DNA from: a virus
Reading direction: 5' to 3' (one strand)
IMG/VR virus record: IMGVR_UViG_3300017744_000123
Span: 1 to 25,922 of that record
DNA length: 25,922 nucleotides
Under the pieces are notes generated by a model that saw only the letters and a list, made by a program, of their open reading frames with translations, was not told the DNA's origin and did no database searches. Below, in pieces: positions 6,134-25,400 of this stretch. The position numbers and the translations under genes were made by a program. Numbering within the stretch: the stretch's first letter is position 1; each line of letters starts with the position of its first letter.

Positions 6134-6574
6134 ATGCATGTTACATTTAACATAATACCTGTTCCTGCTAGTAGACCTAGAGTTACACGATGGTCTACAT
6201 ATTATGGCAAGAAATACACTCAATTTAAAAAAGATATGTATGCACTTACTGCAGATCTTAAAACTATACCTATGACAGGCAATATATTTGCTGAATTACA
6301 ATTTAATGTACCAATACCTAAGTCTTGGTCTAAGAAAAAGAAAGAAGCTAAAAATGGGGCATATTGTGACAATCATGCTGATATTGATAACTATTGTAAA
6401 GCTATACTAGATTCACTTAATAATGTTTATTATGAAGATGACAAACAGATAGTAATGTTAAAAGCTACAATGTTATGGGCAACAGAGCCTAGCATAGAAT
6501 GTAGATTTACAGAGCTAGAAGATAAAGCTAGACCTGCACCTATGCCACCTATGAGTCCATTTGGAGATAATTAA
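6134..6574 (+). CDS. rusA: RusA-family Holliday junction resolvase
   Basis: A 146-residue endonuclease expected to resolve four-way junctions made during replication and recombination, before packaging. It shows the RusA hallmarks: the start FNIIPVPASRPRVTRW, a Tyr/Lys segment (YTQFKKD) and the active-site block HADIDNYCKAILDSLN followed by YYEDDKQI. Asp83, Asp85 and Lys89 match the DxDNxxK core, and Asp102/Asp103 supply the last acidic ligand; Lys110 follows. The length suits the family. A proline-rich tail (ARPAPMPPM) is an extension. There is no strong ribosome binding site, and it starts 1 bp after the previous stop, so coupling is likely. Its stop overlaps the next start as TAATG. Confidence 0.88.
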   Translation: MHVTFNIIPVPASRPRVTRWSTYYGKKYTQFKKDMYALTADLKTIPMTGNIFAELQFNVPIPKSWSKKKKEAKNGAYCDNHADIDNYCKAILDSLNNVYYEDDKQIVMLKATMLWATEPSIECRFTELEDKARPAPMPPMSPFGDN

Positions 6575-7223: not shown

Positions 7224-7240
7224 GCGGTGCTCCGCACCGT
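7224..7240 (+). promoter_or_regulatory. N4-type virion RNA polymerase promoter hairpin, candidate
   Basis: CGGTGC (7225-7230) and GCACCG (7234-7239) form a perfect six-base stem around the three-base loop TCC, extended by a G-T pair. On the minus (template) strand the core reads GCGGAGC with loop GGA, the same seven bases as the core of the N4 P2 early promoter as I remember it; the loop-centre G and stem G would sit at -11 and -8. Transcription would run rightwards, starting near 7243, into the SSB-like gene. The expected +1 base here is T, unlike N4. A plain hairpin or weak terminator is the alternative. Confidence 0.5.
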
Positions 7241-7250: not shown

Positions 7251-7290
7251 TCTATAGAGGGTTCTGTTACTACCTTTATAGATTTTTATT
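7251..7290 (+). terminator. Intrinsic terminator or leader hairpin before the SSB-like gene
   Basis: TCTATAGAGG (7251-7260) pairs with CCTTTATAGA (7273-7282) over ten pairs with one G-U, a 12-base loop between, followed by TTTTTATT (7283-7290). This has the form of a rho-independent terminator for rightward transcription. It lies only 27 bp before the next ATG, so the SSB-like gene would need read-through or a phage polymerase that ignores the signal. Confidence 0.55.
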
Positions 7291-7316
7291 CACAGTAACT
7301 AAGGGAGATTTGTATT

Positions 7317-8018
7317 ATGGGCAAATTTAGTATGCACGATGATATAAAATTAAAAGAAACTTCACTAGGTGGAGGCTCATATCTATGGGACTCTGGCGTA
7401 TATAAAACAATAGTAGATATGGCATACTTTGACCAATCAAAAGGCGGAGCTCATTCATTGAATGTGACTTTGTTAGGCGAAGATGGCAAAAAGCTAAAAC
7501 AAACTATTTGGTTTACTAACCGCAAAGAAGAAGTTCATTTTGTAAACCAGAAGGGTGAGAAAGATTACTTACCTGGATATACACTAGTTAATAACCTAGC
7601 TCTAATCATTACAGGCGAAGACATCAATGAGGCTTTCGACAAGAGTGAAAAGAAAATGGTTAACGTCTATGACTTTAATGAGAAGAAAGAAAAACCTACA
7701 GAGAAGAGCGTTGCTACTTCTTTATTAGGTAAGCAAATTAAAGCCGCAGTCCTGAAGCAAACTGTCAATAAGAGAGTTAATGACGGTAGTGGTACTTACG
7801 TAGACTCTGCTGAAACTAGAGATGAAAATCAGTTGAAAGAATTTTACTTTCCAGATTCTGATTTGACTGTAGTTGAGAAAGCTAAAGATGCTACTGAAGC
7901 ATTGATGATGCCTAAATGGGCAGAGCGTAACACAGGTAAGACTCTTAACAGAGTTAAAGAAGTTACAGGTTCTACATCTGCAGCTGCAAAGCCAGCAGGT
8001 AAGAAGCTATTCAATTAA
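7317..8018 (+). CDS. Putative single-stranded-DNA-binding protein
   Basis: A 233-residue protein with AAGGGAGA 9 to 16 bp before the ATG. The first 130 residues alternate as beta strands in a way that suggests an OB-fold: YKTIVDMAYFDQ, SKGGAHSLNVTLLGEDGKKL, QTIWFTN and KDYLPGYTLVNNLALIITG. The SKGGA...LNVTL / GKKLKQTIW / LPGY pattern resembles phage proteins annotated as single-stranded-DNA-binding proteins, including those beside the N4-like replication cluster. The second half (KQIKAAVLKQTVNKRV, TRDENQL) is charged and the end is Ala/Lys-rich, without the acidic tail typical of SSB. It is the first gene after the structured leader and candidate hairpin promoter. In N4 the SSB gene also sits just before the convergent virion RNAP gene. 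Assignment rests on pattern memory plus context. Confidence 0.55.
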   Translation: MGKFSMHDDIKLKETSLGGGSYLWDSGVYKTIVDMAYFDQSKGGAHSLNVTLLGEDGKKLKQTIWFTNRKEEVHFVNQKGEKDYLPGYTLVNNLALIITGEDINEAFDKSEKKMVNVYDFNEKKEKPTEKSVATSLLGKQIKAAVLKQTVNKRVNDGSGTYVDSAETRDENQLKEFYFPDSDLTVVEKAKDATEALMMPKWAERNTGKTLNRVKEVTGSTSAAAKPAGKKLFN

Positions 8019-8026
8019 GGAGTACT

Positions 8027-8284: not shown

Positions 8285-8447
8285 ACTTATAGCTGGTACG
8301 ACAGGGTTTACAGTGCTTATTATTGCAATCTTAGCCCTGTCTGTCATTGCAATACCTATACTAGCAGTTATATTTATTATGTTTGTAGTATATTTTATTG
8401 TAAAGTTGATGTTGTATGACTTAGATGAAGAAAATAAAAAAGATTAG
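8256..8447 (+). CDS. Small two-helix membrane protein
   Basis: A 63-residue protein with a short basic N-terminus (MKLKFPKNLK), two hydrophobic helices at about 11-33 and 35-54 joined by IPIL, and an acidic end, LDEENKKD. The ATG at 8256 lies inside the previous gene; there is no strong ribosome binding site, so translational coupling is likely. It is the last gene of the left arm, and its TAG overlaps the TAA of the giant gene on the other strand. The size and topology would suit a small holin or another membrane-acting phage protein, but no sequence family supports this. Confidence 0.6.
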   Translation: MKLKFPKNLKLIAGTTGFTVLIIAILALSVIAIPILAVIFIMFVVYFIVKLMLYDLDEENKKD

Positions 8448-11400
8448 AATCCTTCTAACATCATAATTTCTACTCCAGGCGGTATAAACACTTCTTCAAG
8501 TATTTTTTCTACTCCGCCAATTGTAGGCATAAAATTACCTGTAATAAGATTAGAATTTAAAATAGTTTCAATATCTAAACCTAAAAGACTATTTCCTGAA
8601 AATATTATTCCTGCATTTAATGGTTTATTAATCATTAAATGTAAACCTGCACGTTGTATTCTCATCCAGTATTTTACGAATAGTATTAAACCCATATCAT
8701 TTGTATAACCTAAATATCTATTTAGTGGTTGATCGTAATTTACAAAAGTTTGTATCATTAATTGGTATGCCTCTTTTTTATCCATACCTTTTTCTTCTGT
8801 TTGGTATTTATATAATGCGTAACGAGCAATAAAATCACTTATTTGTAAGAAATGCATCGATGCTTTAAATATAGCAGTGTGTTCACCAATATAAGCTTGA
8901 TTTGCGATGTTTGTTACTTTTCCTGTAACTAGCTTTCCTCCTTTTTCTTTAAGCTTGTTTAACATCTTATTTCTGTAGCTATACTCATTTTGGTTTATAT
9001 CTTCAGTAATAGAGTTAAACAAGCCCTCATCAATAAACCAAGCTACTTTATTTTTATTCATATCAGCTACCAAAGTAGCTCTCTTTAGTTTAAGAGCACT
9101 GCTGTTTTTTAAAGCAGGATTACTTAACACTTCTAAATCTAACAATTTTAATTCGTTAGCCATTAATCTATAATCTTTAAGTTCTTTAATCCCTTCATAC
9201 CACTTTTTAACTAAATAATCAGGTGGTACTCCGTATGCCCAAGAGGTAATAAAATTACTTGTAAAGTTTGCAGCAGGGACAATTGGAATTTTTATTACAA
9301 TGTTTACTGTAGCCATATTGACCATTTCTTTAACAAACTTTTCACTTATTTTTAAATAACGTTGTGTTTTTCTTGCAGTTGCTGATTTTTTAGCTAGTTT
9401 TTTAGGTACTAAACTAGATATTGAAGGTGTCACATAACCAAATATTGTATCTAAAAATCCACGTTCAACTAGAAAAGAATCTTTTCCTGTTTTGTTGTCA
9501 AACGTAGCTCTTTGCATAATCTCATACTTAGCCTGTTTAGGTAGATGGTCAAAATATTCTTCTTTAAAATCTGCTGATAATATATTTATAAATCCTTTAG
9601 GGTTTTTAGAATAAGCTTTTTTTCTATATTGATCCATTAATTTAATAGCTTCTTCATTTATTAATTCAGAATTAATTCTGTCTTCTATTTGACTGTACAT
9701 TGTTGGCAGAACTTCTTCAAAAGATAAATTTTGTTTTAAATAATTTTCAAATTCATTTTGTCTTAAATTAAATCTATAGTTAACAATATTTAAATCTTCA
9801 TCTACTAACGGAATCATTTTATAAGTTTTATCTATATTTGCGCTTGTTTGTTGTTTTGCTTCTTGCAGCTGCGCTGCAATTAATTGTTGTGCTGTAAATT
9901 TATTTAATTTAGCTTTTAATTGTCCTGGGCTACTTTCATCTCTTGCATTAATTGTCATAAAGTTAGTACCTTTACCAACCATACCTGTCATTGATAATAC
10001 ACCTTTAGTTCTTGTTAAATCTGGGTCGTTTTTTATTACATATAAACCCCAATTTTCTCCTTTAAGTCCTGCAATATTATGAAAATTTCCTATAAATTGA
10101 TAACCTTCAGATTTCATTCTTATTTGTGTTTCAACATTACTTAACTCTACTCTTAATGCTGCATCACTGTCTGTAACTTGTGCAATATAACCTTTTTGCA
10201 TTAATACTGGATTATTTTTAAAAGCTCTTTCTAAAGAATCTCTTTTAAAACCCATATGTAAATTTATTAAAGCATGTATTCCGTTATGTGTACTATTTAA
10301 ACCAAATTCTCTTTCTTGTATTACTGTGACCATTTTTTTAGATTCGTCACCAACTTTTTGTAAAGCAAGTAAACTTACAAAAATATCTATTTGTTTAATT
10401 ATTTCGTCTTTTTTACTTTTACTTTTTCCTCGTAAAGGTTTTGAAATATATATGTTATTTGCATTAAGATATAAATTATTAACAAAAGTTTTGTTTGTTA
10501 CCATGTAATCTGATAAACCTTCACTTTGCAATAATTGATAAGGAGTTAAACCTTTTTTATACTCATCAATTTTATTTTGCAATACATCAGGATTTTTAAT
10601 AATTTCCATAACTTCTTCAATAGTAAACTCTTTAGTGTCTACTAGTACTGAAAGATCTGTTTTTAACAAAACTCTTGTTATAGCACGTTTATCTTCTTCA
10701 GTTAAAGACTTATAATCTTTGAATACTTTTTTAAGTTGTTTTTGTGTAATTTCTTTATGAGCTCTACGATTAGCATCAACTACTTTATTTGATTTATAAA
10801 GCAATTTAATAAAATCTTGATTAACATCACCTAATATATCTGTTTTTAAAGAACTTAATATTTTTAATGAACCTGGTCTAAAGCTTCCATATATTCTCGC
10901 TAAAACTCTTTGAATTTCTGAATTATTTTCAATTAATTCTTGGTTTTTAGCTGTAAGTAAAGTCATTAATTTACTATCGTATAGCACGTCAGCAACGAAA
11001 TTGTCAATTTTTCCTTGTCTAGTTAATGCATCAACCATATTGTTGTATTTATCACCAGCAATATTTAAACCTTTTGTACCTGCTCTTTTAATAAAATCTG
11101 ATAGTATCGCGTTACCTTGGTCTGCGATACCACCTGCTTTATCTAAATATACTGCATTTGCAAGACTACTTCGTTTAGACTGATTTACTTCAATAACTTC
11201 TTTAGTTAGCTGAAATATTTCTTCTTCTAAATTTGCAGGTTTATTTTTTCTTTCTAAAAGATTTTTAAATCTTTTTATCATTTCTGCAAACATTGTAAAT
11301 AGTTTTTCTACAACGTTATCAGTAGAATCTTTACTCCATAAAGGTATGCTTTCTGATGGCATACTCTTTAATGTGTTTACTAAAAATTTATTAGTTAATG

Positions 11401-14400
11401 CATAAGCTAAGAATTCATCTAATACAGCGTCTGCAGGTGGTCTTACAAATACATAATCATATTGTTCTTTAGCTGCTTCTATTTCTGAAGCTTCATCTCT
11501 TCGTGATATTATGTTTCCATCACTATCTCTATGCAAAAAGATTTCATATGGATTCTTTTCTGTTTTTTCTATCTGTGCTTTAACCTGTTCTCTAATTCTT
11601 TTAACATTTCTTCTGAATTCAGGATTGTTTTTAAGAATAAAACGAGTAAGAATATGTATTAACTCATGTGTATAAACTTCTTGACCGTTCTGTTGTGAAT
11701 AAGATTTAGGTAAAAATTTGTTAATGTTTACGTTTACAGAGTTATTTGTAATGTTAGCGTGTCCACTAGTCTTAATATTACCTTTATTTAGCGTTACTAC
11801 TGTTTTATCTAATATAGGACCTGCTTTAGCAATAATCTCATCTAAAACACGCTTTAAATGAGTTTCTTGTGTTGATTTATCTTCTTCGGAAAAATAAGAT
11901 TTTGTATGCATTTTTCCAATGCTTTCAAAAATATTAATTAGATTGCTTCTTAAATCTGTACTTGTGTATATTTTTTTAAGGTCTTCTGTTGTCTGTTCTT
12001 CTAATGAACCTAATAAAGAACCTAATTTATCAGCATTATTATCTAAAAGTTTTTTCTTATTATATTCAGCTTTTTCTTCTTCATATTGTTGTAGCTGGTT
12101 TTCGTATTGGTCATTAATAAGTTGATCGTTTTCATTTAATCCTAATTCACCTGATACTTCTCCAACAATCCTATCAAATATCCAATCATAGTCTGCATAA
12201 CCACTTCCATCATCATCTGCAAATAAACCATCGTCTATAAGCTCATTTACTGGAATTCCATCTAATTCTCCTGTTGTACTATCGTTTCTAAACAATCCTG
12301 GCATCTGTTTATTAGTAATATCTTGAGCTTTTAATTCTTTACCAAGAGTACTATTAGGATTAATGCCACCCATGCGTTTAATTCTATTTATAAATGCTTT
12401 ATTGTTTGTAAATTTAGGCTTTATTGGAGCAATAGGTTCTTGAGGCAATCCATTTTGACTATCAGTTATTCTCTGTATAATTTTTTCTTTTGTTGCATTA
12501 TTTTCTATTGGAACTTGTATTCTTTTAGCTAATTCTATAAGTTTACTTTTACTTTGTTGTTCTAATTTAGCTAAAGGTTCCCAAACAAAAGGAACTGTGT
12601 TAATGTTGTTAGGAGTTAGATTAGTATTTTTAAGATCTCCCTGGGACGATTCTATTTCTGCATTAAGTTTAGCAATATCTTCGAGAGTTAATGGTGTTTC
12701 TTCAACAGCACTACTATCTGTTACTATGTTGTTATTAGTATCATCAATACTTTCTTGACCAGCTTGGTCTTTTTTTACTATAGTAGGTACTGTTGATTTA
12801 TCAAATACTGATTCAGGAACATAAAACTGTGATGACCTTGCATTTTTTAAATCAATTTTTGATTGAGCTTCATTTACTTTGGCAATTTGTTCTACTAATT
12901 TTTCTTGTATTGATTCAATATTAACAAATCTAATAAAGTCGTCAATTTCAGTTTCAGTGTCTTTAATGTTTTTTGCAACATCAGTTGTAATTGGACTTAT
13001 GCTTTTTAAAACTTTTAAACGTTTTTTTAGCGTTGTAATCTTATGGCTTTTAGTTTGAATTAGGTCATTGATTCTATTTAAATATTCAGGGTCTTTATTT
13101 TTAATTTTTACTAAAAAAGTTTCTAATGCATCACGCATTTCATCTAATATACGATTGTTTAATCCATCTTCTAAAAACCATTCATTTAAGATAGTTGCAT
13201 CATTTACAACATCATTTATACTACTTGTTTTTGCATCATGTATAAGCATGCCTTTAGGATTTGCTTTAACAATTTTACCAATGCCTACAGAATCTCTATT
13301 TTGAATTGCTCTAATAACTGCACCAACACCAGGAGAGTCCCAGTTAGGTGTAAAAGTTAAAGTTTCTAATGTAGTAAACTTGCGATTTTCAATTGTTTCC
13401 CAGTTTTTTGTTTTTTCTTCAACTGGAGCAGCTATACCTTTGTTAAAAATTTGAATACTATATTTACCATCTAACTCTGGTTTTGTATTAATTAATTCTA
13501 AAACACCACTACTTTTTTCACTGTAAATATAACCTTTAAGTTGTGGCATTAATTCTTTTAATTCTTTTGCTACTAATAATTTTGTAGCTAAACTTGATAT
13601 TTTTTTAGATTTATTAGTTTTTGGATCAACATATGTTATTGCGTCATTGTAAGCTTCAACAAAACCAAAATACATTATTTCTGCTGCTTGCACTACTAAA
13701 TCACTAGATTCTTTTAAAGGACCTAATAACGTATCTAATGTGTTAGTAAAAGCATTTGTATATAAATCTTTAAAATATTTATTAAAAACTTGAGTTTCTG
13801 CATCTGCAAGCACAAAACCGTACAAATTATTTCTATACGTTTTTTTAATTCTATTTTCTGTACTTCCTTTTTTATTTAATCTATTTACTAAATTTACTCC
13901 TCTAAGCCCTCTATCTTTAAGAATTAAATTAATATGTCTTTGAATAGCTCTAACTTTATCTACAACTTCTTTCTTTTCATTATTTGTTGTTGCATTATTA
14001 AATTCTGTTTGAAATTCTGCTAATTTATCATATAAATCAGGAATTATTGACGCTATAACATTAGAAATAACTCTAGGAGTACCTGCTCCATAGTTACTAA
14101 TCATTACTGGAGATTTAGCTATATCTCGTGCAAATGAACTTAACTTTTCAAGTCCACTTTCTTCAGACATATCGTAAAACTTTCCATGAAGTACTTCGAT
14201 ATTTGCTAAAGTTTCTGTACCTAACTCTTCTTTTGTTTGTTCACTTGGTTTAGTTAATTCTTTATAAAAAGTATCAGAAAAGAATTGATAAACATCTAAT
14301 TCACCTCGTGCAATAAATTTTTCAAAAGTATCTTTAATATCTCCTGGTTGCGCATTAATACCAATTCTAGCAAATTGTTCAACTAACTCTTCAGGTTTAC

Positions 14401-17400
14401 CAACAGCAAATTGTAATAGACCTATTGCATAACCATTAGTAGTACCATCCATTTCAAGATAAATAGTTGACACAAAACTTTCAGGATTATATTCACTAAG
14501 TGCTACTAAACCTTCAAGCACACGCATAGTTGTTTTAATAGTACCTTCATCTATTAGTTCATTGATTAAAGTATTTAATTTATCATTAGTAACTTTAAGA
14601 TCACCTTCATTAATAGCCCTTTGTACATCTTCTTTTGGTAAAGATTTTAGAATGTCTAAACTATTATTTTCTGTTTTTAAAACTTTTAATATTTCGTCAA
14701 TTATTGCTCCAACACTTGTTTTAGTGTCTCTTAACATTTCAAATTGAAGCTCTGCTGCTTTTAGAGTAGTTAATTTAAAACCAAAGGCTTGAGCTACCGC
14801 AAGTTTAAAAACAGCTCTATCCATGTCTGTGTTAACTGTAGAAGGATTATCTGAATAGAAGAAATCTCGCATCATCTTACTGCGTTGTTGATTAATAGTA
14901 TTACTTATAATCTGGAATCTACCTTGCTTCATTACATTCCAACGATAATAGAATCCTTTGTTTTTACTATTAGCAACAAAATCACGTAATATTGCTAAAT
15001 CTTCAACAATTTCTTTATTAGCAGCTTTTTTACCTTCTAATTTTTCATCATGTACTTCATCTAGATTTTTATAGTTATTTAAACGAAGTAATGTAGTATC
15101 AGTTAATGCATTAAAAAGAGGATATAAATTTTCTTTAGCTTTATGTTTTACATTTTGTAAAGATGTAACAACACTTTTATGTTCATCAGATATTGGATAA
15201 AAGCCATCTCTTACTGTTTCTTGTACTTCTTTTACAGGTTTATCAAAAATGTCTTTTAAATAAGACTGACTACCTTTAATAGCTTCAAGATTATTTACAT
15301 TATCTTTAAATACATCTAAAACTTTGTTAGTTGCAGGTGTATCTCTAACTATTAAAGTATTTCTTACAATTTTTTTACTTTTACTATCTACTAAATATTC
15401 TTCATTATCATCAAATAAATCTGGATCATATCTACCGTGATGAAATTGAAAAAATCCCCCTTTAACAATAACTCCTGACGTTTTAGTAGAAACATTCTTA
15501 CCTTTAACTCTTTTTTCTTGATTTATATTATTTGATGTTTTTAATTTACTTGTATCAAGTGCTAAAAATCTAGCTGCTTCAATTGATAATAAAGCTAAAG
15601 CTTGACCTGTTCTTTTAGCTACTATTGCATCTTGAGTAAATACTTCATTAAAACTAGGATCTATTTTTGCTAAATCTAATTTTACAAATAATTCATCTTC
15701 AGTAGCATTTTTACCTTTAATATTTAATATATCTAATATTTCATTACTAATATCGCGTGTAGCATTTCTTATAGACATACCTGCATCTTTAAATGCGTCA
15801 TATTGTTCAGACCTTATTCTATAAGTCTGCTTAGGATCACCAAATAACATTGCAGCTATTTTGTATCTAGGCATGTTTCTAGATATATTTTTATTTATAG
15901 CTGCCCAATGCATTGTAGATAACATCATTGCAAAAATAACTTCATCAGGGATAGTACCGTTTTTTAACGTTAATAATAACTGAGGATTAGATAAAGCCAT
16001 AACTCCATCATTTTGTAACTTAGTATTGATAGTATCTAAATTAGGTAATACATTATTTATCAATTCTTTTTTAAACTTAGTAAACATTGTTGTTACAGCA
16101 TCAATGTATTCTGCATTTTGTTTTTTAGGATTATCTTTATTTACAAGTTTTATTAATTGTTTTTTAATATAATCAGAACTTAAAGTTGTTTGATTATTAG
16201 TTGCAAAAAATGATGTTGTTCTATTAGCATCTCTGATTTCAAATAAATCTCTAACTTTTAATAAATTATCTGCAGTTTGGGCAAGATTAAAAAATTGATC
16301 CGTAAACTTATTTAAAACATTATTAAGAATAAGTTCTTGGCGTTGAGCTTTTTCTAATTTACTTATATTTTCTTTTTGTATTTTTTCAAATGACTTAAGT
16401 AAAGCTTTGTTTGAATTTATTCTGTATTCTAATTCATTGATTTTTTCACTGCGAGATGATTCTAAAATTTCAGATTTTTTTAATATTTCTAATTCAGCTT
16501 CTTGTCTAGCAATAGTAGCTTTTAACTTACTAATACTATCTGTAGCTGCTTTTTCTTTTTCTTTTAATTCATCTATTGTAGATGTTTCTTGTTTTTCTTC
16601 TTTTTTAGATTTAGTATTTACAGCTGCAGACTGTTTTTTGCTATCTTTAGGTTTAGTTCCAGGTTCTTCTTCTACAGCATCTGTAAATTCTTTATTATCA
16701 AGTTTATTAGTTGCTGGTCTATCTTGTACAATTTCTGATTGTATTTTTTCACCAATCTTTTTAGTTTGATTTTTAGCTACTTTAACTTTATTTTTTGTTT
16801 TTCTATTTAGTACTACACCATCAATATACTCTCCGAGTATATTGATGTATTCAACTTCTTTTTCTATATAGCCAACTAAATTAAGACTTTGAGAGTTTAC
16901 CCACCAACTATTTCCATCATCATTAAAATCAACTTTAAAAGTATCTTTATTCACATAAACAATAGTTTCAGTATCTAAGCCCTCGTTAAATACTAAATTT
17001 TCAGCTTTTTTAAAAGCTTCTAACTTTTTATTATGATGTTCTTTAAAAGCTTTAAAAGCACTTAAAAAAGGTAATCCATTTTCTGCTCTATAAAGATAAT
17101 CTTTTAATCCTGTAAATTTTTTATCACCCTCTATAACTTGTTTATAGACTTCTACTACTCCTCTATTAGACTTACCTCCTAATATCTCAGGTCTTTCAGG
17201 ATTAATCTGTACATGTAAATCAGCTATTTGATTTCTTAATTTATATAAATTTTTTTCTGCTTTAGTAAGGTTTTTTTCAACTTTTTTAGATAGTTTTAAT
17301 GTTTTATTAATTACATCAATTTTTAAAGAATTTAGAATATCACTTGCTTTTGATTGTGCTTCTTTTGTTTCTGTACCTTCTTTACTTAATTCTTCATTTT

Positions 17401-20400
17401 CTCTATTCATAACGAGTTGAGTAGTAGCATTAACCCGTTTAATTTGTTTTTCAAGTCCTCGAATTAATGTTCCTAATTGTTTTTGTTCTCGTTTTTGAGT
17501 AGTGTTTTGTGCTGCTTTTAATAATTCATCTTGATAAGCTTTTAATTGTTCATAACCAACATCAAGCTCTTCCATTAATGTATTGATTGTTTCTTCGTCT
17601 AATACTGTTTCATTAATAGCTTTTAATAATTTATCTTGTGTTTCCTCAACAGCTTCAACAGCTTGTTTAATTCTATCGTTGCTTGTTCTTTGAACAACTT
17701 TATTAGTAAACCAATCATAAGAATCTAATGCTTTTTCTGCTGCAGTTTTTGTTGCTGGTAATAACTCAGTTGTACCAGATAAATTTTGAATTATAGTAGC
17801 TTGAGCTTGACGAGTTCGCTCTAAACGTTTACGTTCTGATTTAGATAATTTTGGATCATTTAATTTTGTGTTAATCTCTTGAATTAGTTTAATAGCTTCA
17901 TTAACACGTTCGCTAATTTTAGTTCTTTCAGCTCTATTAGCTTTATTAATAGGAGCTCCTCGAGCTGCTCTATTTAGCTTACTGTTTGCACTTTTACGTA
18001 TTAATGCTTCTTTATCTTTTTCTTCTTTATTTAATGCTTCAACTTCTTTGTCATCAATTGCTTTTGATTTTTTAACTCTATATTCTTGTTCAAGAGCAGC
18101 TAATTCTCTAATAGTTTCGTTTTCAATTATTTTTTGTAAAATAGCAACTTGTTGTTTTGGACTACCTGATTGATAGTTTTTAATAGCAGCTTCAAGTTTT
18201 TCAATAGCTGCGTTTGTTGGGTCAACTTTGCTTAATTCATCTAAAAGTTTTATTGCAACTGATATTGGAGTTTTATCTTTGCCTTTATTTAAATTTAACC
18301 CTTTAGTAGCTTGCAGTACTTCTTTAACAATAGTAGATAATTCAGTTCCAGAGTCTTCTACTATTTCATCTAAACTTCTTGTTTCGTTTTTTCCAATTAT
18401 AGATTCTTCACCAGCTGTACGAGCTTCTTGTTCTATTTCTTGTTGACGTTCTCTAGTTCTAGCTCTATCAGAATCTAATAAAACATCTTTTGCTCCACCT
18501 AATGTTGATGTTATTGTACGGATACCACCACCAGGAATAGCTCCTGCAAACATAGAATTTACAATTCCAGATACAAATTCATTTGCATTAATATTTTTTA
18601 AATCACCTTCTTTAATTAATTCTTGAGTAACTTCTGAAACAACAAATTGTAATCCTTCAGTTACTGCTTCTATTGATGCACCTGATGCAGTTTGTTTACC
18701 AATATTAGCAAGAGCAGGAATAAGTCTTTCAATAAACTTTTTCTTAATAGCATCAGTACCTACTTTAGATGCACCTTTAGTTGCAAATAAACTGGCTGGG
18801 AATATAGCTTCTAAACTAGCTGCTGTTGAACCTCCTATAAATGACATTATTTGGGCTCTTCCATCTCTTTCACCAGCTGCTGCTACATCAAGATATATAC
18901 CACCTGTTTCTAAAACATTAGCTGCTACAAACGCTCCACTGTACTGACTTATTCTTGTTATATTAGCTATAGATTTATCTCTAGCTTCTTGGCTAATTTT
19001 TTTACTAACAAATTTATTAGCTCCTTTTTTACCTAACCAACCAAATATTCCACCTGTGCCATACATAGTAGCTATTGATGGAATTCCTTCACCAAATGTT
19101 CTACCAACTTTAGATAGTACTGCTCTTGGATTAGTCCAATCTAATTCTTCTACTGTTGGTAATATAACGCCTCGACTTCGTGCTTGTTCAAGTTCTTTAT
19201 GAGCTTTTTGCATCCATTCATTAGCTTTTTTAGTATCACCACGCCAATCAGCAATAAGCATACCCATGCCATAAACTACAGCTTGTATATTGTCATAGCC
19301 ACCCATTAATCCATTACTAATTTCAGCTAAAAATCCTTCACCATCAGGATTAGGTTGTCTAGCTATTTCATTTACGTTAGCTAAAATTTTGTCTACATAA
19401 GCTTTGTTATATTTACTAAAGTATGCAGCATTGTTAGTAATATTATTTAAACTATCATTTAAAACGTCGCCTGTTTCAGGATTAGTTAATGTACCAAGAG
19501 CTCTATTATAAATACCTACACCATCTGTTTTAATATCTACATTAACATCGCCTGTAAGTACAGATGCATCAATAGGCGGACGCATTTCATTTGCTATAAA
19601 TTTAACTTTATGTATTTTGCGTTCAATAGCTTTTAGTTTTTGTAAACTAGTATTGTCTTGTCTATTTTCAAACCATTTGTAAATACTATCAATACTACCA
19701 TCTATACCTAAAAGTACATTTTTAGCTAATCCATCAATTTCATCTTTTTCAATATTTTGAATAAGATTAATTGTTTCTGCTTCTCTGCCTTCTCTACTTA
19801 ACTCAGTTATTTTTTGTTCACCTGCTAATAAATCAGCTTCTTTATAAAATTCTTGAGTTAAAGTATCTAATTGATTTTGATACTCTTTTGGATACGGTAC
19901 AGCTTCACCTCTATTAGGTTTAACTCCATAGTCATCCCAAGTTTCACCTTTATATAATGCTTCTACTAGACGTTGAGTTTGCTTTTGTGCTTCCGCATTA
20001 AGCATTTCTTGTGTTACATAGTCTTTATTAGGCAATCCATTAACTTTAGCATAATGAATTCTGTGATAGTCGTATTTATTTTTATTATAAGGTAATAGTC
20101 TTTTATTACCTGATTCATCAATTTCGTATTTAGCTGTTTCGTAAGTATCTAAACTTTGACCTGGATCATTAGAACCTAATCTAATTATTTGTTTTTTAGG
20201 TTCTTTTCCTCCATAGAAACTTTCATAAGGACTTGTAATCTCAATAGTATCACCATCAAGAGTATCAGATTCTATTCTATTGAATACGCTATAAAAGTCT
20301 TTACTAGCAGGATCGTTTAAATATCTGTTTTCTAACGTTAGAGACGCGTTTGCTAAACTTGCTTTTTTACTATAAATTGATGCAGGAGAATTTAAATAAG

Positions 20401-20494
20401 TTTTTATTTCAAATGCTTTTTTATCAAGAGCTTCTCGTTTAGCATCAATTTTAGCCTGAAAAGAGTTTACACTTTTTTCAAATTCTGTTGCCAT
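8444..20494 (-). CDS. Giant N4-like virion RNA polymerase / ejection protein
   Basis: A 4016-residue protein with a single-subunit, T7/N4-type RNA polymerase in its middle, expected to be packaged in the virion and injected to transcribe early genes. Catalytic motifs: MKQGR (Arg1859) followed by TINQQ, for the T/DxxGR motif; MDGTTNG (Asp2016), motif A; RDIAKSPVMISNYG (Arg2123, Lys2127, Tyr2135), motif B; LIHDAKTS (Asp2420), motif C. Arg-Lys-Tyr spacing equals T7 and N4; A-to-B is 111 residues, as in N4 (94 in T7); A-to-C is 404 (392 in N4, 275 in T7). By analogy the core spans about residues 1430-2575. Residues 465-700 are Gly/Ala-rich and hydrophobic; 700-1500 are Lys/Glu-rich coiled coil; HELIH (His2943, Glu2944, His2947) with Glu3027 suggests a zinc peptidase; a hydrophobic stretch lies near 3720-3750. 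It is last in the virion gene train, and no Shine-Dalgarno is seen before the ATG. Confidence 0.9.
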   Translation of the reverse strand: MATEFEKSVNSFQAKIDAKREALDKKAFEIKTYLNSPASIYSKKASLANASLTLENRYLNDPASKDFYSVFNRIESDTLDGDTIEITSPYESFYGGKEPKKQIIRLGSNDPGQSLDTYETAKYEIDESGNKRLLPYNKNKYDYHRIHYAKVNGLPNKDYVTQEMLNAEAQKQTQRLVEALYKGETWDDYGVKPNRGEAVPYPKEYQNQLDTLTQEFYKEADLLAGEQKITELSREGREAETINLIQNIEKDEIDGLAKNVLLGIDGSIDSIYKWFENRQDNTSLQKLKAIERKIHKVKFIANEMRPPIDASVLTGDVNVDIKTDGVGIYNRALGTLTNPETGDVLNDSLNNITNNAAYFSKYNKAYVDKILANVNEIARQPNPDGEGFLAEISNGLMGGYDNIQAVVYGMGMLIADWRGDTKKANEWMQKAHKELEQARSRGVILPTVEELDWTNPRAVLSKVGRTFGEGIPSIATMYGTGGIFGWLGKKGANKFVSKKISQEARDKSIANITRISQYSGAFVAANVLETGGIYLDVAAAGERDGRAQIMSFIGGSTAASLEAIFPASLFATKGASKVGTDAIKKKFIERLIPALANIGKQTASGASIEAVTEGLQFVVSEVTQELIKEGDLKNINANEFVSGIVNSMFAGAIPGGGIRTITSTLGGAKDVLLDSDRARTRERQQEIEQEARTAGEESIIGKNETRSLDEIVEDSGTELSTIVKEVLQATKGLNLNKGKDKTPISVAIKLLDELSKVDPTNAAIEKLEAAIKNYQSGSPKQQVAILQKIIENETIRELAALEQEYRVKKSKAIDDKEVEALNKEEKDKEALIRKSANSKLNRAARGAPINKANRAERTKISERVNEAIKLIQEINTKLNDPKLSKSERKRLERTRQAQATIIQNLSGTTELLPATKTAAEKALDSYDWFTNKVVQRTSNDRIKQAVEAVEETQDKLLKAINETVLDEETINTLMEELDVGYEQLKAYQDELLKAAQNTTQKREQKQLGTLIRGLEKQIKRVNATTQLVMNRENEELSKEGTETKEAQSKASDILNSLKIDVINKTLKLSKKVEKNLTKAEKNLYKLRNQIADLHVQINPERPEILGGKSNRGVVEVYKQVIEGDKKFTGLKDYLYRAENGLPFLSAFKAFKEHHNKKLEAFKKAENLVFNEGLDTETIVYVNKDTFKVDFNDDGNSWWVNSQSLNLVGYIEKEVEYINILGEYIDGVVLNRKTKNKVKVAKNQTKKIGEKIQSEIVQDRPATNKLDNKEFTDAVEEEPGTKPKDSKKQSAAVNTKSKKEEKQETSTIDELKEKEKAATDSISKLKATIARQEAELEILKKSEILESSRSEKINELEYRINSNKALLKSFEKIQKENISKLEKAQRQELILNNVLNKFTDQFFNLAQTADNLLKVRDLFEIRDANRTTSFFATNNQTTLSSDYIKKQLIKLVNKDNPKKQNAEYIDAVTTMFTKFKKELINNVLPNLDTINTKLQNDGVMALSNPQLLLTLKNGTIPDEVIFAMMLSTMHWAAINKNISRNMPRYKIAAMLFGDPKQTYRIRSEQYDAFKDAGMSIRNATRDISNEILDILNIKGKNATEDELFVKLDLAKIDPSFNEVFTQDAIVAKRTGQALALLSIEAARFLALDTSKLKTSNNINQEKRVKGKNVSTKTSGVIVKGGFFQFHHGRYDPDLFDDNEEYLVDSKSKKIVRNTLIVRDTPATNKVLDVFKDNVNNLEAIKGSQSYLKDIFDKPVKEVQETVRDGFYPISDEHKSVVTSLQNVKHKAKENLYPLFNALTDTTLLRLNNYKNLDEVHDEKLEGKKAANKEIVEDLAILRDFVANSKNKGFYYRWNVMKQGRFQIISNTINQQRSKMMRDFFYSDNPSTVNTDMDRAVFKLAVAQAFGFKLTTLKAAELQFEMLRDTKTSVGAIIDEILKVLKTENNSLDILKSLPKEDVQRAINEGDLKVTNDKLNTLINELIDEGTIKTTMRVLEGLVALSEYNPESFVSTIYLEMDGTTNGYAIGLLQFAVGKPEELVEQFARIGINAQPGDIKDTFEKFIARGELDVYQFFSDTFYKELTKPSEQTKEELGTETLANIEVLHGKFYDMSEESGLEKLSSFARDIAKSPVMISNYGAGTPRVISNVIASIIPDLYDKLAEFQTEFNNATTNNEKKEVVDKVRAIQRHINLILKDRGLRGVNLVNRLNKKGSTENRIKKTYRNNLYGFVLADAETQVFNKYFKDLYTNAFTNTLDTLLGPLKESSDLVVQAAEIMYFGFVEAYNDAITYVDPKTNKSKKISSLATKLLVAKELKELMPQLKGYIYSEKSSGVLELINTKPELDGKYSIQIFNKGIAAPVEEKTKNWETIENRKFTTLETLTFTPNWDSPGVGAVIRAIQNRDSVGIGKIVKANPKGMLIHDAKTSSINDVVNDATILNEWFLEDGLNNRILDEMRDALETFLVKIKNKDPEYLNRINDLIQTKSHKITTLKKRLKVLKSISPITTDVAKNIKDTETEIDDFIRFVNIESIQEKLVEQIAKVNEAQSKIDLKNARSSQFYVPESVFDKSTVPTIVKKDQAGQESIDDTNNNIVTDSSAVEETPLTLEDIAKLNAEIESSQGDLKNTNLTPNNINTVPFVWEPLAKLEQQSKSKLIELAKRIQVPIENNATKEKIIQRITDSQNGLPQEPIAPIKPKFTNNKAFINRIKRMGGINPNSTLGKELKAQDITNKQMPGLFRNDSTTGELDGIPVNELIDDGLFADDDGSGYADYDWIFDRIVGEVSGELGLNENDQLINDQYENQLQQYEEEKAEYNKKKLLDNNADKLGSLLGSLEEQTTEDLKKIYTSTDLRSNLINIFESIGKMHTKSYFSEEDKSTQETHLKRVLDEIIAKAGPILDKTVVTLNKGNIKTSGHANITNNSVNVNINKFLPKSYSQQNGQEVYTHELIHILTRFILKNNPEFRRNVKRIREQVKAQIEKTEKNPYEIFLHRDSDGNIISRRDEASEIEAAKEQYDYVFVRPPADAVLDEFLAYALTNKFLVNTLKSMPSESIPLWSKDSTDNVVEKLFTMFAEMIKRFKNLLERKNKPANLEEEIFQLTKEVIEVNQSKRSSLANAVYLDKAGGIADQGNAILSDFIKRAGTKGLNIAGDKYNNMVDALTRQGKIDNFVADVLYDSKLMTLLTAKNQELIENNSEIQRVLARIYGSFRPGSLKILSSLKTDILGDVNQDFIKLLYKSNKVVDANRRAHKEITQKQLKKVFKDYKSLTEEDKRAITRVLLKTDLSVLVDTKEFTIEEVMEIIKNPDVLQNKIDEYKKGLTPYQLLQSEGLSDYMVTNKTFVNNLYLNANNIYISKPLRGKSKSKKDEIIKQIDIFVSLLALQKVGDESKKMVTVIQEREFGLNSTHNGIHALINLHMGFKRDSLERAFKNNPVLMQKGYIAQVTDSDAALRVELSNVETQIRMKSEGYQFIGNFHNIAGLKGENWGLYVIKNDPDLTRTKGVLSMTGMVGKGTNFMTINARDESSPGQLKAKLNKFTAQQLIAAQLQEAKQQTSANIDKTYKMIPLVDEDLNIVNYRFNLRQNEFENYLKQNLSFEEVLPTMYSQIEDRINSELINEEAIKLMDQYRKKAYSKNPKGFINILSADFKEEYFDHLPKQAKYEIMQRATFDNKTGKDSFLVERGFLDTIFGYVTPSISSLVPKKLAKKSATARKTQRYLKISEKFVKEMVNMATVNIVIKIPIVPAANFTSNFITSWAYGVPPDYLVKKWYEGIKELKDYRLMANELKLLDLEVLSNPALKNSSALKLKRATLVADMNKNKVAWFIDEGLFNSITEDINQNEYSYRNKMLNKLKEKGGKLVTGKVTNIANQAYIGEHTAIFKASMHFLQISDFIARYALYKYQTEEKGMDKKEAYQLMIQTFVNYDQPLNRYLGYTNDMGLILFVKYWMRIQRAGLHLMINKPLNAGIIFSGNSLLGLDIETILNSNLITGNFMPTIGGVEKILEEVFIPPGVEIMMLEGF

Positions 20495-20506
20495 TTAAGT
20501 TATTTG

Positions 20507-21811
20507 TTAGTCTGATTTTAATAAATCAGCCATAAAGGCTTTAAAACCTTTAGCTGTTAATGCTTCACCTTCTTCTCTGCTAGTAGCGTATGCACCCCAA
20601 TGAGTGTCATAACTTCTTATATTGCCACTACCACCTTCAGATTTTTCATACCAACTAAATAATTCGTTTTTTAAATCTATTTCTACTCTAGAATCTAAGA
20701 ATGCTGTTTTAGCTTCAGCTATTGTGTCACCAATAAGACTTTGACCACCTTTACCAAAATTATTAGTTTTACCATTAGAATTAGTAAATGCAAAGTCGTT
20801 AAGACCACCAAAAAGACTATTATCATTAAATGTAATGTTATCTGATGCCCATCTATCAAACATATCTCTATTACGCACATCTTGTGGTTTGTAACCTAAA
20901 GATTTTAATACTTTAGTTCTAAAGTCAGCATAAGCAGCTATATCAGCTTGAGTAGCTCCTACATCAGTTCCAGTAGCAGCAGTAAGTCCACCACTAGCTT
21001 TAGTAAAGATTCCTTGTAAACCTTTAGGTATATTGCCAATTTCTTTAAGATAGTTTTCGTTAGCTTTTGTTAAATCTTTTTGTCTTTGTAGATTTTCTTT
21101 GTGAGCTTTTTCTTGGAGGTCTAAATCAATAGCTAATTGTGCTGCAATATCTTCTTTAATTTTTAATTGTTCTGCAACACTTTTTGCTGTAGCTAATGCT
21201 TTTTCTTCTGCTATTTTAGCTTTATTCTTAAGTTCTTCTTGGCTTCTATCAAAAGCAGCTTGTAATTTTTCTTCAGTTAACTCAGCATTTTTTTCAGCAA
21301 CTTTAACATCATACCCATATTCAGTTTCAGCAAGATTTTCAGCATTAATTTGTTTAACATTTTCAATAGCTAAATTATCTTGAAAATTTTGTGCGTTAAT
21401 ACTTCTTTGTAAATTGTTATCAAATTGTTTTAATTCTTTAGATTGTTTAAATTCCCTTTCATCAATAAGTTGTTCTGATTCAGCATCTCTAGCTTCTTTA
21501 GCTAACTGCGTTGCTAGTGTTCTTTCATCAGCTCCTAAATCATAACTTTTTTGACCAATTTTTTCAAAATCTAAATAATCTTGTCCTTGAACACCTTGAA
21601 TCATTGCATCTCTTTGAGCAGTATTATCAGCTGTCATCAATTGAGCAATAAATTCTCCAGTTTCTTTATCTTTTCTATCTGTAACATATTGGTCTGCTTT
21701 AGTACCTAAACCTTCAATATTTTCACTTATTAATTGATTGTTTGCTATTAACGTTTTAATTAAATTAGCATTATCATTTCTATTTACTGTTTTCCAATTT
21801 AGGACTGCCAT
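20507..21811 (-). CDS. Putative internal virion (ejection) protein, coiled coil
   Basis: A 434-residue protein starting MAVLNW, with AGGAG 5 to 9 bp upstream of the ATG. Residues of about 95-260 are almost entirely Glu/Lys/Gln/Ala-rich helix, with long coiled-coil text such as AELTEEKLQAAFDRSQEEL. The C-terminal 170 residues are mixed and glycine-containing, with SWYEKSEGGSG and THWGAYATSREEG. No enzyme motif is seen. It lies between a gp14-like small protein and the giant polymerase, the position held by gp15 in T7-type ejection protein sets, so a role as an internal virion or DNA-ejection component is likely. The gap to the giant gene is 12 bp. This is a context-based call; sequence similarity to T7 gp15 is not apparent. 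Confidence 0.6.
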   Translation of the reverse strand: MAVLNWKTVNRNDNANLIKTLIANNQLISENIEGLGTKADQYVTDRKDKETGEFIAQLMTADNTAQRDAMIQGVQGQDYLDFEKIGQKSYDLGADERTLATQLAKEARDAESEQLIDEREFKQSKELKQFDNNLQRSINAQNFQDNLAIENVKQINAENLAETEYGYDVKVAEKNAELTEEKLQAAFDRSQEELKNKAKIAEEKALATAKSVAEQLKIKEDIAAQLAIDLDLQEKAHKENLQRQKDLTKANENYLKEIGNIPKGLQGIFTKASGGLTAATGTDVGATQADIAAYADFRTKVLKSLGYKPQDVRNRDMFDRWASDNITFNDNSLFGGLNDFAFTNSNGKTNNFGKGGQSLIGDTIAEAKTAFLDSRVEIDLKNELFSWYEKSEGGSGNIRSYDTHWGAYATSREEGEALTAKGFKAFMADLLKSD

Positions 21812-21820
21812 ATTAAACTC

Positions 21821-22390
21821 CTAAGAATAAGTCGTTGGAACGGGAGTATACAAAGGATCTCTTCCTTGTGCTTTTAACCATTGATTACGCATTTCAGCTT
21901 GGTCATTATAGTTCATAGCATTACTTGCAAAGTTTGCTCTACTATTTGCATCATTATCAGCCATTTCTTGTTTTAATAGTTTATTAGCTTGAAATCCTGA
22001 CCAAATACTTGCTAAATCGCTAGCTCCACCTGCTAAATCTGCAAATAAACCTATATTATCTTGAGTAAAATATTTTCCAAACCCTGTTGGTTCTTTACCA
22101 TAACCTAATTTTTCTGCTTCTCCTTTCCAAAAATTAGTTGCACTACCAGGTTTATTCATTCCACCTGCTAAGTTATATATAGAAAATCTATCTTCTGTTG
22201 CAGGCATATTATAAGGAGTACTTGTATTTTTATTAGTATTTAAACCCATATTTGATAGGTTTTGATAACCAGCTAAAGCAGCACTTCTTTCAGAACTTAA
22301 TCCTGAATCAAATCTTTTAAGATAAGGTGAATCTGCTGGCAAGCCTGTTTCAGAATCTACCCATCTATTATTTTTCCATATTACAGCCAT
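21821..22390 (-). CDS. Putative small internal virion protein, gp14-like layout
   Basis: A 189-residue protein starting MAVIWKNNRW. The first 110 residues are polar and Gly/Asn/Ser-rich. A hydrophobic helix, IGLFADLAGGASDLASIWSGF (about 113-133), follows, and then a charged helix, KLLKQEMADNDANSRANFASN. A helix of this kind followed by an Asn/Gln/Ala-rich helix is the usual form of gp14-like ejection proteins and other small podovirus internal proteins. AAGGA lies about 10 bp before the ATG. The 79-bp gap upstream of it (22391-22469) is very AT-rich and may hold a promoter, but I see no clear -35/-10 pair. Its stop is inside the ribosome binding site of the next gene. The role is inferred from layout and order. 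Confidence 0.55.
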   Translation of the reverse strand: MAVIWKNNRWVDSETGLPADSPYLKRFDSGLSSERSAALAGYQNLSNMGLNTNKNTSTPYNMPATEDRFSIYNLAGGMNKPGSATNFWKGEAEKLGYGKEPTGFGKYFTQDNIGLFADLAGGASDLASIWSGFQANKLLKQEMADNDANSRANFASNAMNYNDQAEMRNQWLKAQGRDPLYTPVPTTYS

Positions 22391-22469
22391 TTTTAAATCC
22401 TTGTAAAGTGGTTAATATTAAAGTTATTTATATCATACATCATAAATTAATTATTGTATATAGCTTTTA

Positions 22470-25400
22470 CTAAACTCTCATATCATTTCTTTCATAGATA
22501 TTGTCAAATTTATTTTCATATTCAAATTCTTCATATGCTAATGTTTGATAGTTACTAAAATAATCATAATACTCATTAGCCATCATTGGTAATAAATTAG
22601 CTCTATAACTTTTAACTAAAGAATTAGTATTTAATGCTGCTTCTGCATCTTCTAGCATTTGAAAAGCTTCATCTCTTGCAGTATCTATAGCTTTTTGTTC
22701 TTCTACTAATGTTGCTGTTAAGTCTTCAAGAACAACTTCAACAACATCACTTAATATATCTGTTGCTGTTCCTAATAACTCTACAATATCTTTAAATTCA
22801 GTAAAATCAATATTTCGTATATCTTTACCGCCTGCTCTATAAGCTAAAAATACTCCAACAGCAAAAGCTAATTCAGGACTTATTTTTTTAGCAATAGTAA
22901 CTACAATTTTTTTAATTACTATTTGAATAACAATCTCTCTTATCATAGCTTGTAAAGCTTGCGCTGCAGCAAATTGTCCTGTCATAAGAGCCATTAAAAA
23001 TAAAACAACTTGTACTATTTTTAACAATCCTACCCAAGCTGGTTGCTCAATTATTTGTACATCAGCTACGTATAAAGATATATGTGCACTAGCAACAAAT
23101 AAACTAGATACATGGTCATTAGGTAATGATTTAATAACTTCATAAGAAAAAGGAATCATTAGTCCTGTAGGATCAGTTAAGTCAAAATTAACCATTTTGA
23201 ATTTACTAGTTTGAGTATCAATTACTCGTAACATAGTTTTAGGTGAATGCACTGTATATGTATTCATTCCACTAATTATATTTTGATAGTATGTAAATGA
23301 TGTCCCTGTAGTAGTAGGCTCATTAGCTTTATTAACTAGCTTTAATCCAGCTGAAATTGCTAAAGGTGTCAAGACACAACGACCTTGACTACCACTACCA
23401 CCATCATTACCACTTCCACCTCCTGAACCCCCACCACCAATACTAATTTCAACATAATCATCGGTATTAGCTACTGTATGATTTACAGTGTAATAAGCAC
23501 CTCTAAGACCAGGATTACCAGAATCATCATCGTGAAACCATCCACCATCATCACCGCCTGATGCTCCACCTGCTGAATATCCTGATGCACTACCTCCAGC
23601 TGAATCGTTATGATTTTGACCACCAGTACCTTGAAAAGATGAATGTGCTCCTGAAGGTACACCATTACTACCAGGACCACCAAAAGATTCTCCAGGAAAA
23701 CCAGTTGAAGTTTCGTGAGCATTTCCTGCTCCTCCTGCTCCGCCTCCAGCAGAATATGTGTTTAATAATGTGCCTCCAGCATTATAAACTCTAGCATAAG
23801 TAGTACCACCACTACTACCATTACTACCACTACCTCCTCGTTCACCACTACCTCCTCCACCTCCTCCACCAGATATTTCAATTTTTAATGTTCCAGAAGT
23901 AGGAGGTATTTGATAAGTTGTATTACTAGTTATTTGTGTAGTAGGAGTAGCTATACGCTCATATATTTCAGATGTTCTTAAACCTCCAGAATTATTAGCA
24001 GAGTTGTCTGAATTTACTATTACTCCTGAAAAAGTAATAGCTTGTGTAGGTTGCATCCAATCAGCAGCTTCAGAAGAATAGCTAGATTGTTGTGTAAGTG
24101 TTCCAGCTATATACGCTGTTACATTTGCAAGAGTAGTACAAAAATAACCTACGTTATATGTGTTTACACCTGATGAAACATAATAAGTACTTGTTAATTG
24201 ATTACTACTATTAAATTTACTAGAGTCTGAATAATACTTTTCATATATATCTGAACCAGCACCTGCATTGTTAATAGCTGTTAAAGAATAATTAGCATAT
24301 GTAATATAAGCCCAGGTAAATGCTAATTTATAATCACCTGCAGTCACTAAAATAGTATTGTAAGGTTTTTCGTCTGAACTTGGAGTACTATCGTAAATAG
24401 CTTTAGTTACTCCTTGACCAGGAAATAAAGTACTTAAAAATCTAAAACCATAATTCATAGCAGTTTGAGATGTATCCCAAATTCTAACTCCAAAGTTTAA
24501 ATAAACGTGATCTACTTTATTTTCATAATTTGCTATGTTAGTAGCAGCAACATCTGCCATGACTTGAGTTATTATGTTTTCAGCATCTAAACCAACAGTT
24601 TTTGCTAAACCTATTATTTTATCTCGTTTAGTTGTACTTTGTCCTGAAGCATTAAAATTAGTATTGTTTAGACGTAAAGGTATTGCTGGCAATACACTTA
24701 AAGTATCACTACCTGTAGTAGTAATTTGTGTATTTGGATCATCTAATCCACTGTAAGTACCTGCACCTACTTTATATATAAATAATTTATTTACACTAGG
24801 AGCACTGTCTAAATAGTAATTTACTATGTAATGTAGTCCTGTAGGTTTATTAGGTACATTAAAACCTGTAAAGTTTGCTAATGGGTTTCCTAATCGTAAT
24901 GTGTAATTATTACTGCTACTGTTATAAACAGAATTTGAGACGTTAACTACATAATAACTACTGCTATGATAAAACGTAGATGTCTCATGTACATAAGCTT
25001 TGTTTTCTTGTAACCAATATTTTTGCCAAGGGTTTACAAACAATGTACCTAATTTAGCATTAGATATTGTGCAAGGAGCGCTATTAAGAGTAGTTAATAC
25101 CGAATCGACTTCATCATAGTCGATAGTCATTACGTTACCTTTTAAAGTTGGAAATCCTTCAAAATAGTTATTATTAGTAATGTAATCTACAAATTTTTTA
25201 ACATTGCGTTTTCCGTTTTGAAATAACGTAGCATAAAGTAAATCACTTGATATATCTCTTTCATTTATAAGTGCATTATAAATAACTTCTGCAGAAGCTT
25301 TTTTATCAGGTTTTTCAAATAAAGCTTGATTGTGTACTTCAAAAAGTTCTACATCACTATCTGCAGTTTCACCATCTTCATAACCTAATAAATTAGCAAC

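Follow-up and report, generated by a model that had tools for sequence, protein, structure and literature searches.

The stretch of viral DNA considered here, positions 1 to 25,922 of IMG/VR record IMGVR_UViG_3300017744_000123 (hereafter the window, 25,922 nucleotides), carries the end of a DNA polymerase gene followed by genes for an exonuclease, a primase, a Sak4-like protein, a RusA-like resolvase and a single-stranded DNA-binding protein (SSB) and, on the opposite strand, genes resembling gp50, gp51, gp52 and gp53 of phage N4 (Table 1). The gp50-like gene is an intact open reading frame of 4016 residues with its ATG at 20494 and zero internal stops; the initial annotation of this DNA had its limits exactly right and left out only the strand, which is minus. 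Its product is a genuine giant N4-type virion RNA polymerase (vRNAP) of an N4-like (Schitoviridae) phage. Between phages of this clade that are otherwise near-identical, a cassette consisting of the vRNAP, the gp51-like and gp52-like proteins and the tail-lumen end of the gp53-like protein differs radically. The best explanation overall, to which we assign a probability of about 0.83, is that this is the vRNAP of an N4-like phage whose ejection cassette has been exchanged as a block.

Table 1. Genes, domains, motifs and other features of the window
Feature	Position	Strand	Basis or remark
DNA polymerase, C-terminal part (N4 gp39-like)	3..608	+	phrog_2573 E 1.4e-27; 42.5% to N4 gp39
Exonuclease (N4 gp42-like)	598..1578	+	phrog_2139 E 4.5e-126; 40% to N4 gp42
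DNA primase (N4 gp43-like)	1852..3996	+	phrog_2135 E 3.7e-302; 46% to N4 gp43
Sak4-like ssDNA annealing protein (N4 gp44-like)	3996..4715	+	phrog_124 E 3.3e-42; 47% to N4 gp44
RusA-like Holliday junction resolvase	6134..6574	+	phrog_140 E 9.5e-39
Hairpin CGGTGC-TCC-GCACCG, candidate vRNAP promoter, rightward into SSB	7225..7239	+	GGA loop on minus strand; hairpin scan
SSB (N4 gp45-like)	7317..8018	+	phrog_743 E 5.9e-61; 34% to N4 gp45
Divergent, putatively exchanged cassette: vRNAP, gp51-like, gp52-like, 3' end of gp53-like gene	8444..22870		Nucleotide identity profile; boundary alignments
N4-type vRNAP (gp50-like), 4016 residues	8444..20494	-	phrog_2206 and PDB N4 vRNAP matches
C2 domain, residues 3020-4016, best-conserved part of the protein	8447..11437	-	phmmer to N4; alignment
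HExxH zincin-like motif, HELIH, residues 2943-2947, C1 subdomain	11654..11668	-	Motif; Pfam SprT-like sub-threshold
Single-subunit RNA polymerase domain, residues 1430-2575	12770..16207	-	AlphaFold2 model; N4 mini-vRNAP fold match
Motif C, catalytic D2420	13235..13237	-	Invariant in 60 relatives; N4 mini D951
Motif B, R2123-K2127-Y2135	14090..14128	-	R and K invariant, Y/F at 2135; N4 mini K670/Y678
Motif A, catalytic D2016	14447..14449	-	Invariant in 60 relatives; N4 mini D559
R1859 of the T/DxxGR motif	14918..14920	-	Invariant in 60 relatives; N4 mini R424
N-terminal domain and linker, residues 1-1429	16208..20494	-	Clade-only homologues; hydropathy; role of the N4 N-terminal domain
gp51-like ejection protein, 434 residues	20507..21811	-	Operon position, synteny with N4 gp51; phrog_37241 E 1.7e-4
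gp52-like ejection protein, 189 residues	21821..22390	-	phrog_2646 E 4.9e-8, N4 gp52 family
gp53-like tail plug, 1015 residues	22470..25517	-	phrog_2220 E 1.6e-48, N4 gp53 family

The giant virion RNA polymerase

The 4016-residue protein matches the 'virion RNA polymerase' profile phrog_2206 with E=0 and 1046.6 bits, in three stretches that span profile positions 203-3405, and in a phmmer search it finds the N4 vRNAP chains in the PDB (9pnr/11fw) at E 1e-29 to 1e-30. Together these scores exclude a chance match. The Pfam model RNA_pol (PF00940) is matched neither by the window protein nor by the controls, and this result is therefore uninformative. All motifs of the single-subunit RNA polymerases (RNAPs) are present in order, at the residue numbers given in the initial annotation: R1859 (MKQGR), D2016 (EMDGTTNG), R2123/K2127/Y2135 (R-x3-K-x7-YG) and D2420 (IHDAK). 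In an alignment of 14 phage vRNAPs, R1859, D2016, K2127, Y2135 and D2420 are in register with N4 R1421, D1556, K1667, Y1675 and D1948, which are R424, D559, K670, Y678 and D951 in mini-vRNAP numbering. The same alignment bears out the spacings given in the initial annotation, with 111 residues between motifs A and B in both proteins and 404 between A and C against 392 in N4. Across 60 relatives R1859, E2014, D2016, R2123, K2127 and D2420 are invariant, whilst position 2135 is tyrosine in 45 and phenylalanine in 15. The methionine that opens the T/DxxGR motif had been read correctly, but that position is variable (W in 31, Q in 9 and M in 5 of the 60), and the idea that it is special was dropped.

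An AlphaFold2 model of residues 1430-2575 (predicted local distance difference test, pLDDT, 79; predicted template modelling score, pTM, 0.82) is closest, among solved structures compared across the whole core, to the N4 mini-vRNAP (VIA Z 25.8 over 907 residues; Foldseek E 9e-25), ahead of T7 RNAP (Z 21.3 over 508 residues). The initial annotation had proposed this comparison and had named beforehand the outcomes that would count against it, namely motifs placed in unrelated folds or the lack of a profile match; instead, an N4-type fold and the phrog_2206 match were obtained. Neither does the protein belong with the T7-like (Autographiviridae) RNAPs, as the A-B spacing is the 111 of N4 and the N4 fold match is both better and longer. 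The initial annotation puts the corresponding T7 spacing at 94. Core identity to the vRNAPs of cultured phages is about 15-23%, and a close-relative scan with the window's own core as query found no copy elsewhere in IMG/VR.

The domain order, an N-terminal domain followed by RNAP, C1 (with HExxH) and C2, is that of Escherichia phage N4 gp50 (3500 residues; PDB 2PO4, 3C2P, 3C3L, 9PNR). The window protein exceeds it by about 500 residues, most of which lie N-terminal to the RNAP domain or in the stretch from there to HExxH, and its core is about 16% identical to that of N4. Roughly 1430 residues precede the core, close to the 1400 first estimated, compared with about 1000 in N4. This N-terminal part contains hydrophobic stretches at about residues 522-570 and 640-658, and its homologues, in a shallow alignment, are confined to the window's clade. 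The N-terminal domain of the N4 enzyme has a membrane role (PMC12633501), and by analogy residues 1-1429 may form the inner-membrane and ejection part. The HExxH motif, described in the C1 of N4 (PMC12633501), is present in 14 of the 14 phage vRNAPs compared; the Pfam SprT-like match in the HELIH region scores 22.7 bits, below the family cut-off. The C2 domain is homologous to N4 residues 2530-3446 (phmmer). By sequence, the protein has both the C1 with HExxH and the C2 of a Schitoviridae vRNAP, and family match, core fold and catalytic register all agree with the proposal that it is an N4-type vRNAP longer than that of N4 itself.

That greater length had been singled out in the initial annotation. 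The protein does exceed the 3500 residues of N4 gp50, but it is unexceptional in its family, with 4093 residues in Vibrio phage 1.188.C, a sequenced isolate with a vRNAP of more than 4000 residues, and up to 4989 in IMG/VR, and the idea of an exceptional length was dropped. Published reference vRNAPs measure 2,842-3,820 residues (PMC10654107), a range exceeded by relatives of about 4700-4990 residues in loci L102/L318 (3300028706_000779), L100, L121, L125 and L150. 'Open frame' sizes of up to 6988 residues among the relatives are not continuous reading frames; the real ones that were checked measure 4064 and 4989.

An ejection cassette that differs between near-identical phages

Four IMG/VR sequences, 3300028829_002519, 3300013113_000097, 3300046167_000585 and 3300031629_000032, belong to the same clade as the window, with 78-99% identity in replication-gene DNA and an SSB hairpin that is identical or compensated. 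They differ from it in their vRNAPs, the C2 domains being 43-52% identical, and in their gp51-like and gp52-like proteins, which are about 30% identical where measured. Along the DNA, 3300028829_002519 is 97% identical to the window over positions 1-5943, 95% over 6130-6894 and mostly 92-98% up to about 8400; 3300046167_000585 is 97% identical over 1-8196, and 3300013113_000097 about 90% identical ahead of the vRNAP boundary. At the vRNAP stop codon identity falls within a few hundred bases to about 70-73% and then to about 60% (in 3300046167_000585 the drop starts one gene earlier), and it recovers only inside the gp53-like gene. Pairs that are 97-99% identical in replication-gene DNA therefore have C2 domains only 45-52% identical and very divergent gp51-like and gp52-like proteins. 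Against 3300013113_000097, the window's primase, Sak4, SSB and RusA proteins are 92-97% identical, compared with 41% for the vRNAP overall (core 38%, C2 54%) and 30% for each of the gp51-like and gp52-like proteins. The gp53-like protein is itself divided, its first 889 aligned residues being 81% identical and its last 125 or so 34%.

Primase and C2 identities were compared across all loci that hold both genes. In 23 control Schitoviridae pairs with primases 95-100% identical, C2 identity is 83.6-99.7%, as opposed to 36-54% in four such pairs of the window's clade. A second genus of the clade shows the same pattern, 3300002913_000001 and 3300001679_000055 being 98% identical in primase, 36% in C2 and 29% in the gp51-like protein. 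In the primase tree the window groups with 3300046167_000585 and 3300028829_002519 at path lengths of 0.001-0.004, a group rejected by the C2 data (approximately unbiased test, AU, p 0.008). Between the window and 3300028829_002519 the path is 0.0012 for primase and 1.27 for C2, about 1000-fold apart.

A genome-wide comparison of the two longest relatives, 3300046167_000585 and 3300013113_000097, gives 86-94% DNA identity over most shared blocks, with 98% for the major capsid protein and 92% for the portal. The main exceptions are the vRNAP, the gp51-like and gp52-like proteins and one protein of 481 residues. The last of these (L231:2072-3517 in 3300013113_000097) has no PHROG match and is about 46% identical between close relatives; it is probably a fibre, by its position a tail fibre. 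Small indels at window positions 5941-6132 and about 6894-6904, where a gene is absent or 240-600 extra bases are present, separate relatives that are otherwise 95-98% identical. The vRNAP frames are interrupted in 3300028829_002519 (L236, about 16850-16910) and in 3300046167_000585 (L227); because the primase of 3300046167_000585 is also frameshifted, sequencing errors are suggested there in preference to a split vRNAP gene.

Neighbouring genes, candidate hairpin promoters and the probable course of infection

The initial annotation envisaged an N4-like transcription strategy in a phage whose replication enzymes are otherwise not those of N4. The second half of that statement fails, since five replication proteins are 34-47% identical to N4 gp39, gp42, gp43, gp44 and gp45 and lie in the same order; with N4-type replication genes in N4 order, the window is an ordinary Schitoviridae genome fragment. 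Catalytic residues, A-B spacing, full-length core fold, the gene orders gp39...gp45 and gp50-gp51-gp52-gp53 and the GCTCCGC heptamer of the hairpin are all shared with N4, and the core gene set and order around the vRNAP are those of the Schitoviridae. Vibrio phage 1.188.C and Alteromonas phage PT15-A5 (vRNAP of 3495 residues) have vRNAPs of the same family in the same gene neighbourhood, though they represent different genera, with cores 18-23% identical. The weakest assignment is the gp51-like label, which is suggested by position and by a weak N-terminal match: the counterpart in 3300013113_000097 matches phrog_6126, the N4 gp51 family, with E 0.0016 over its first 55 residues. A search of GTDB genomes with the primase gave no clue to the host.

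The first half of the statement, the N4-like transcription strategy, is backed by a C-GGA-G hairpin upstream of the SSB gene and by RNAPII genes in close relatives. RNAPII (gp15/gp16) lies outside the 26-kb fragment and is present as one fused chain in relatives. Heterodimers are reported in nearly all vRNAP phages (PMC4496689). N4 has such a heterodimer, whereas in this clade one chain of about 593-605 residues makes up the RNAPII homologue and spans both gp15 and gp16 (L233:6681-8498 in 3300013113_000097, 48668-50449 of 3300046167_000585, and also in 3300002913_000001).

Hairpins were sought as perfect stems with a three-base loop. As a positive control, the scan recovers N4 hairpins at 90, 557 and 4546; they precede gp1, gp2 and gp15, the places expected for the three early promoters of N4. 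The window hairpin has the form of a vRNAP promoter, C-GNA-G with a stem of 5-7 bp, placed ahead of phage genes on the template strand; it stands 77 bases ahead of the SSB gene and contains the GCTCCGC heptamer found in N4 at 557 and 4546. N4 differs in that its 22-58 kb region is without a GGA hairpin. Within the clade, C-GGA-G hairpins occupy shared sites before the SSB gene, a helicase-like gene and a gene of about 206-215 residues (where some members have a T-A closing pair), and all point in the direction of the downstream genes. The hairpin before SSB is present at 10 of 10 clade loci and at about 12 of 116 other loci. Differences in the stems are compensated, so that the stems covary; because the sites were picked as hairpins, a bias attaches to the percentage of pairing, and what counts is that position, loop and orientation are shared. 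The exact 15-mer occurs in 66 contigs of the collection scan, most of them unrelated, and this count was given no weight. Taken together, the different vRNAP versions appear to share promoters, the sites having been kept despite divergence of the enzymes. Inside the vRNAP coding region, at 16819-16847, lies another perfect hairpin (CATCAATATACTC-TCC-GAGTATATTGATG); it has a TCC loop, and its 13-bp stem is longer than those of known vRNAP promoters.

By analogy with N4, a few copies of the vRNAP would be packaged in the virion and ejected, as its homology and its operon position beside gp51-like and gp52-like genes lead us to infer. At infection the gp52-like and gp51-like proteins would form a channel through which the vRNAP, and then the DNA, would enter. 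With its N-terminal domain at the inner membrane, the RNAP domain would start transcription at hairpins extruded from the template strand of the DNA, and the hairpin ahead of SSB is predicted to drive that gene. A segment of N4 gp53 is lost in the tail lumen, a displacement that, on one proposal, sets gp52 free (PMC12633501). It is with this tail-lumen segment that the divergent gp53-like end aligns in the window's genus, though not in the second genus, a hint that this end may be co-adapted with the cassette.

Proposed exchange of the cassette and its alternatives

These comparisons suggest that recombination swaps the cassette in one piece, its parts being adapted to one another, and that the diverged versions come from a pool common to the whole clade. 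The argument is built on the controls, the second genus, the abrupt boundary and the conflict between the primase and C2 trees. The strongest rival, in itself improbable, is ordinary vertical evolution, in which the cassette simply changes at a higher rate than other parts of the genome and no exchange has taken place. Ejection proteins are generally variable (PMC8954989), and the vRNAP outpaces the primase family-wide, so that at primase identities of 70-80% the C2 of controls is 35-67% identical. Rate alone, however, sits poorly with controls that keep C2 at 83.6-99.7% where primases are 95-100% identical, as against 36-54% in the clade, with the roughly 1000-fold gap in path length and rejection of the backbone clade by C2, or with a boundary that is abrupt and located at a stop codon.

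Slightly less probable again is an assembly artefact that joined the replication genes of one phage to the structural genes of another. All clade sequences are metagenomic contigs, and 3300046167_000585 both ends at the boundary and carries frameshifts. The same boundary nevertheless falls within three other contigs, 3300028829_002519, 3300013113_000097 and 3300031629_000032, whose vRNAPs all differ; the independent contig pair of another genus repeats the pattern; 3300009132_000041 reproduces the gp53-to-vRNAP side of 3300013113_000097 at 99.8%; and the junction has no shared repeat to explain a false join, the reading frame being intact to its stop. It is very unlikely that this is a giant polyvalent protein whose RNAP fold has a role other than transcription. 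Polyvalent phage proteins reportedly exist, and great length, multiple domains and the zincin-like HExxH motif would suit one, but not the catalytic motifs invariant in 60 relatives, the full-length fold match to N4 mini-vRNAP or the matching hairpin promoters. Least likely of all is the view of the initial annotation, that an N4-like polymerase was captured by a different kind of phage with unrelated replication enzymes: the vRNAP is indeed distant from cultured ones, but every recognisable neighbour is N4-type and syntenic, relatives keep an N4-order structural block and an RNAPII homologue, and the primase, 46% identical to N4 gp43 over 700 residues, refutes it together with the exonuclease, Sak4 and DNA polymerase.

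Several points count against the favoured explanation. No close relative of the window's cassette on a different backbone, and hence no donor, was found in IMG/VR. Relative to 3300046167_000585 the window is 97-99% identical in replication genes and only about 85% in the gp53-like region, and recent spread of the replication genes themselves may explain part of the 97-99% identity; this pairing is also less secure because the contig ends fall exactly at the breakpoint and frameshifts are present. In the second genus, divergence of the cassette leaves out the gp53-like C-terminus. The clade's phages are known here from sequences alone. The promoter-contact residues K114, R119, W129, D901 and R904 of N4 fall in gapped, poorly alignable regions and cannot be mapped reliably, so that it stays a prediction that every version recognises the shared hairpins.

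As to what might favour exchange of the cassette, one may speculate that phages are selected to evade blocks on their ejection proteins set up by the host or by a prophage, of the kind that SieA imposes on P22. In P22-like phages the ejection genes gp7/gp16/gp20 likewise rank with the virion genes that vary most. Complete ejection sets from other phages work in P22, the HK620 set and foreign or mutant proteins can escape SieA exclusion, and gp16 and gp20 of Sf6 work in P22 only when swapped together (PMC10883804). By analogy, this need for a joint swap and this escape from SieA make exclusion-driven exchange a plausible cause. The P22 system differs in that its proteins are unrelated and none is an RNA polymerase, and in that its variation is among the group's different phages, not within flanks 97-99% identical. 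A fuller proposal, for which we would give even odds, is that the infection-starting machine of this clade is a hot-swappable cassette, whose versions within one species are nearly as unlike as those between genera and keep the same hairpin promoters, so that all the diverged polymerases would have to read one promoter code, the swapping being driven by membrane blocking factors of hosts or prophages.

Mosaicism of ejection proteins is already known for P22; for the vRNAP no report of exchange was found in the open-access literature, which omits most subscription journals. The classification of N4-like phages uses the vRNAP as a hallmark gene, and a survey of genomes placed its tree among the best trackers of the multigene tree (PMC10654107). 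In the window's clade it is the gene that tracks the backbone worst. The pattern also draws attention to factors of hosts or prophages that target the ejection proteins of these uncultured phages. If a polymerase of 4000 residues can be replaced along with its channel proteins while the promoters are kept, natural recombination boundaries would reveal which parts of the N4 ejectosome must match (the vRNAP, gp51 and gp52, and perhaps also the part of gp53 that ends in the tail lumen), and the collection of vRNAP versions would provide a direct test of hairpin-promoter recognition.

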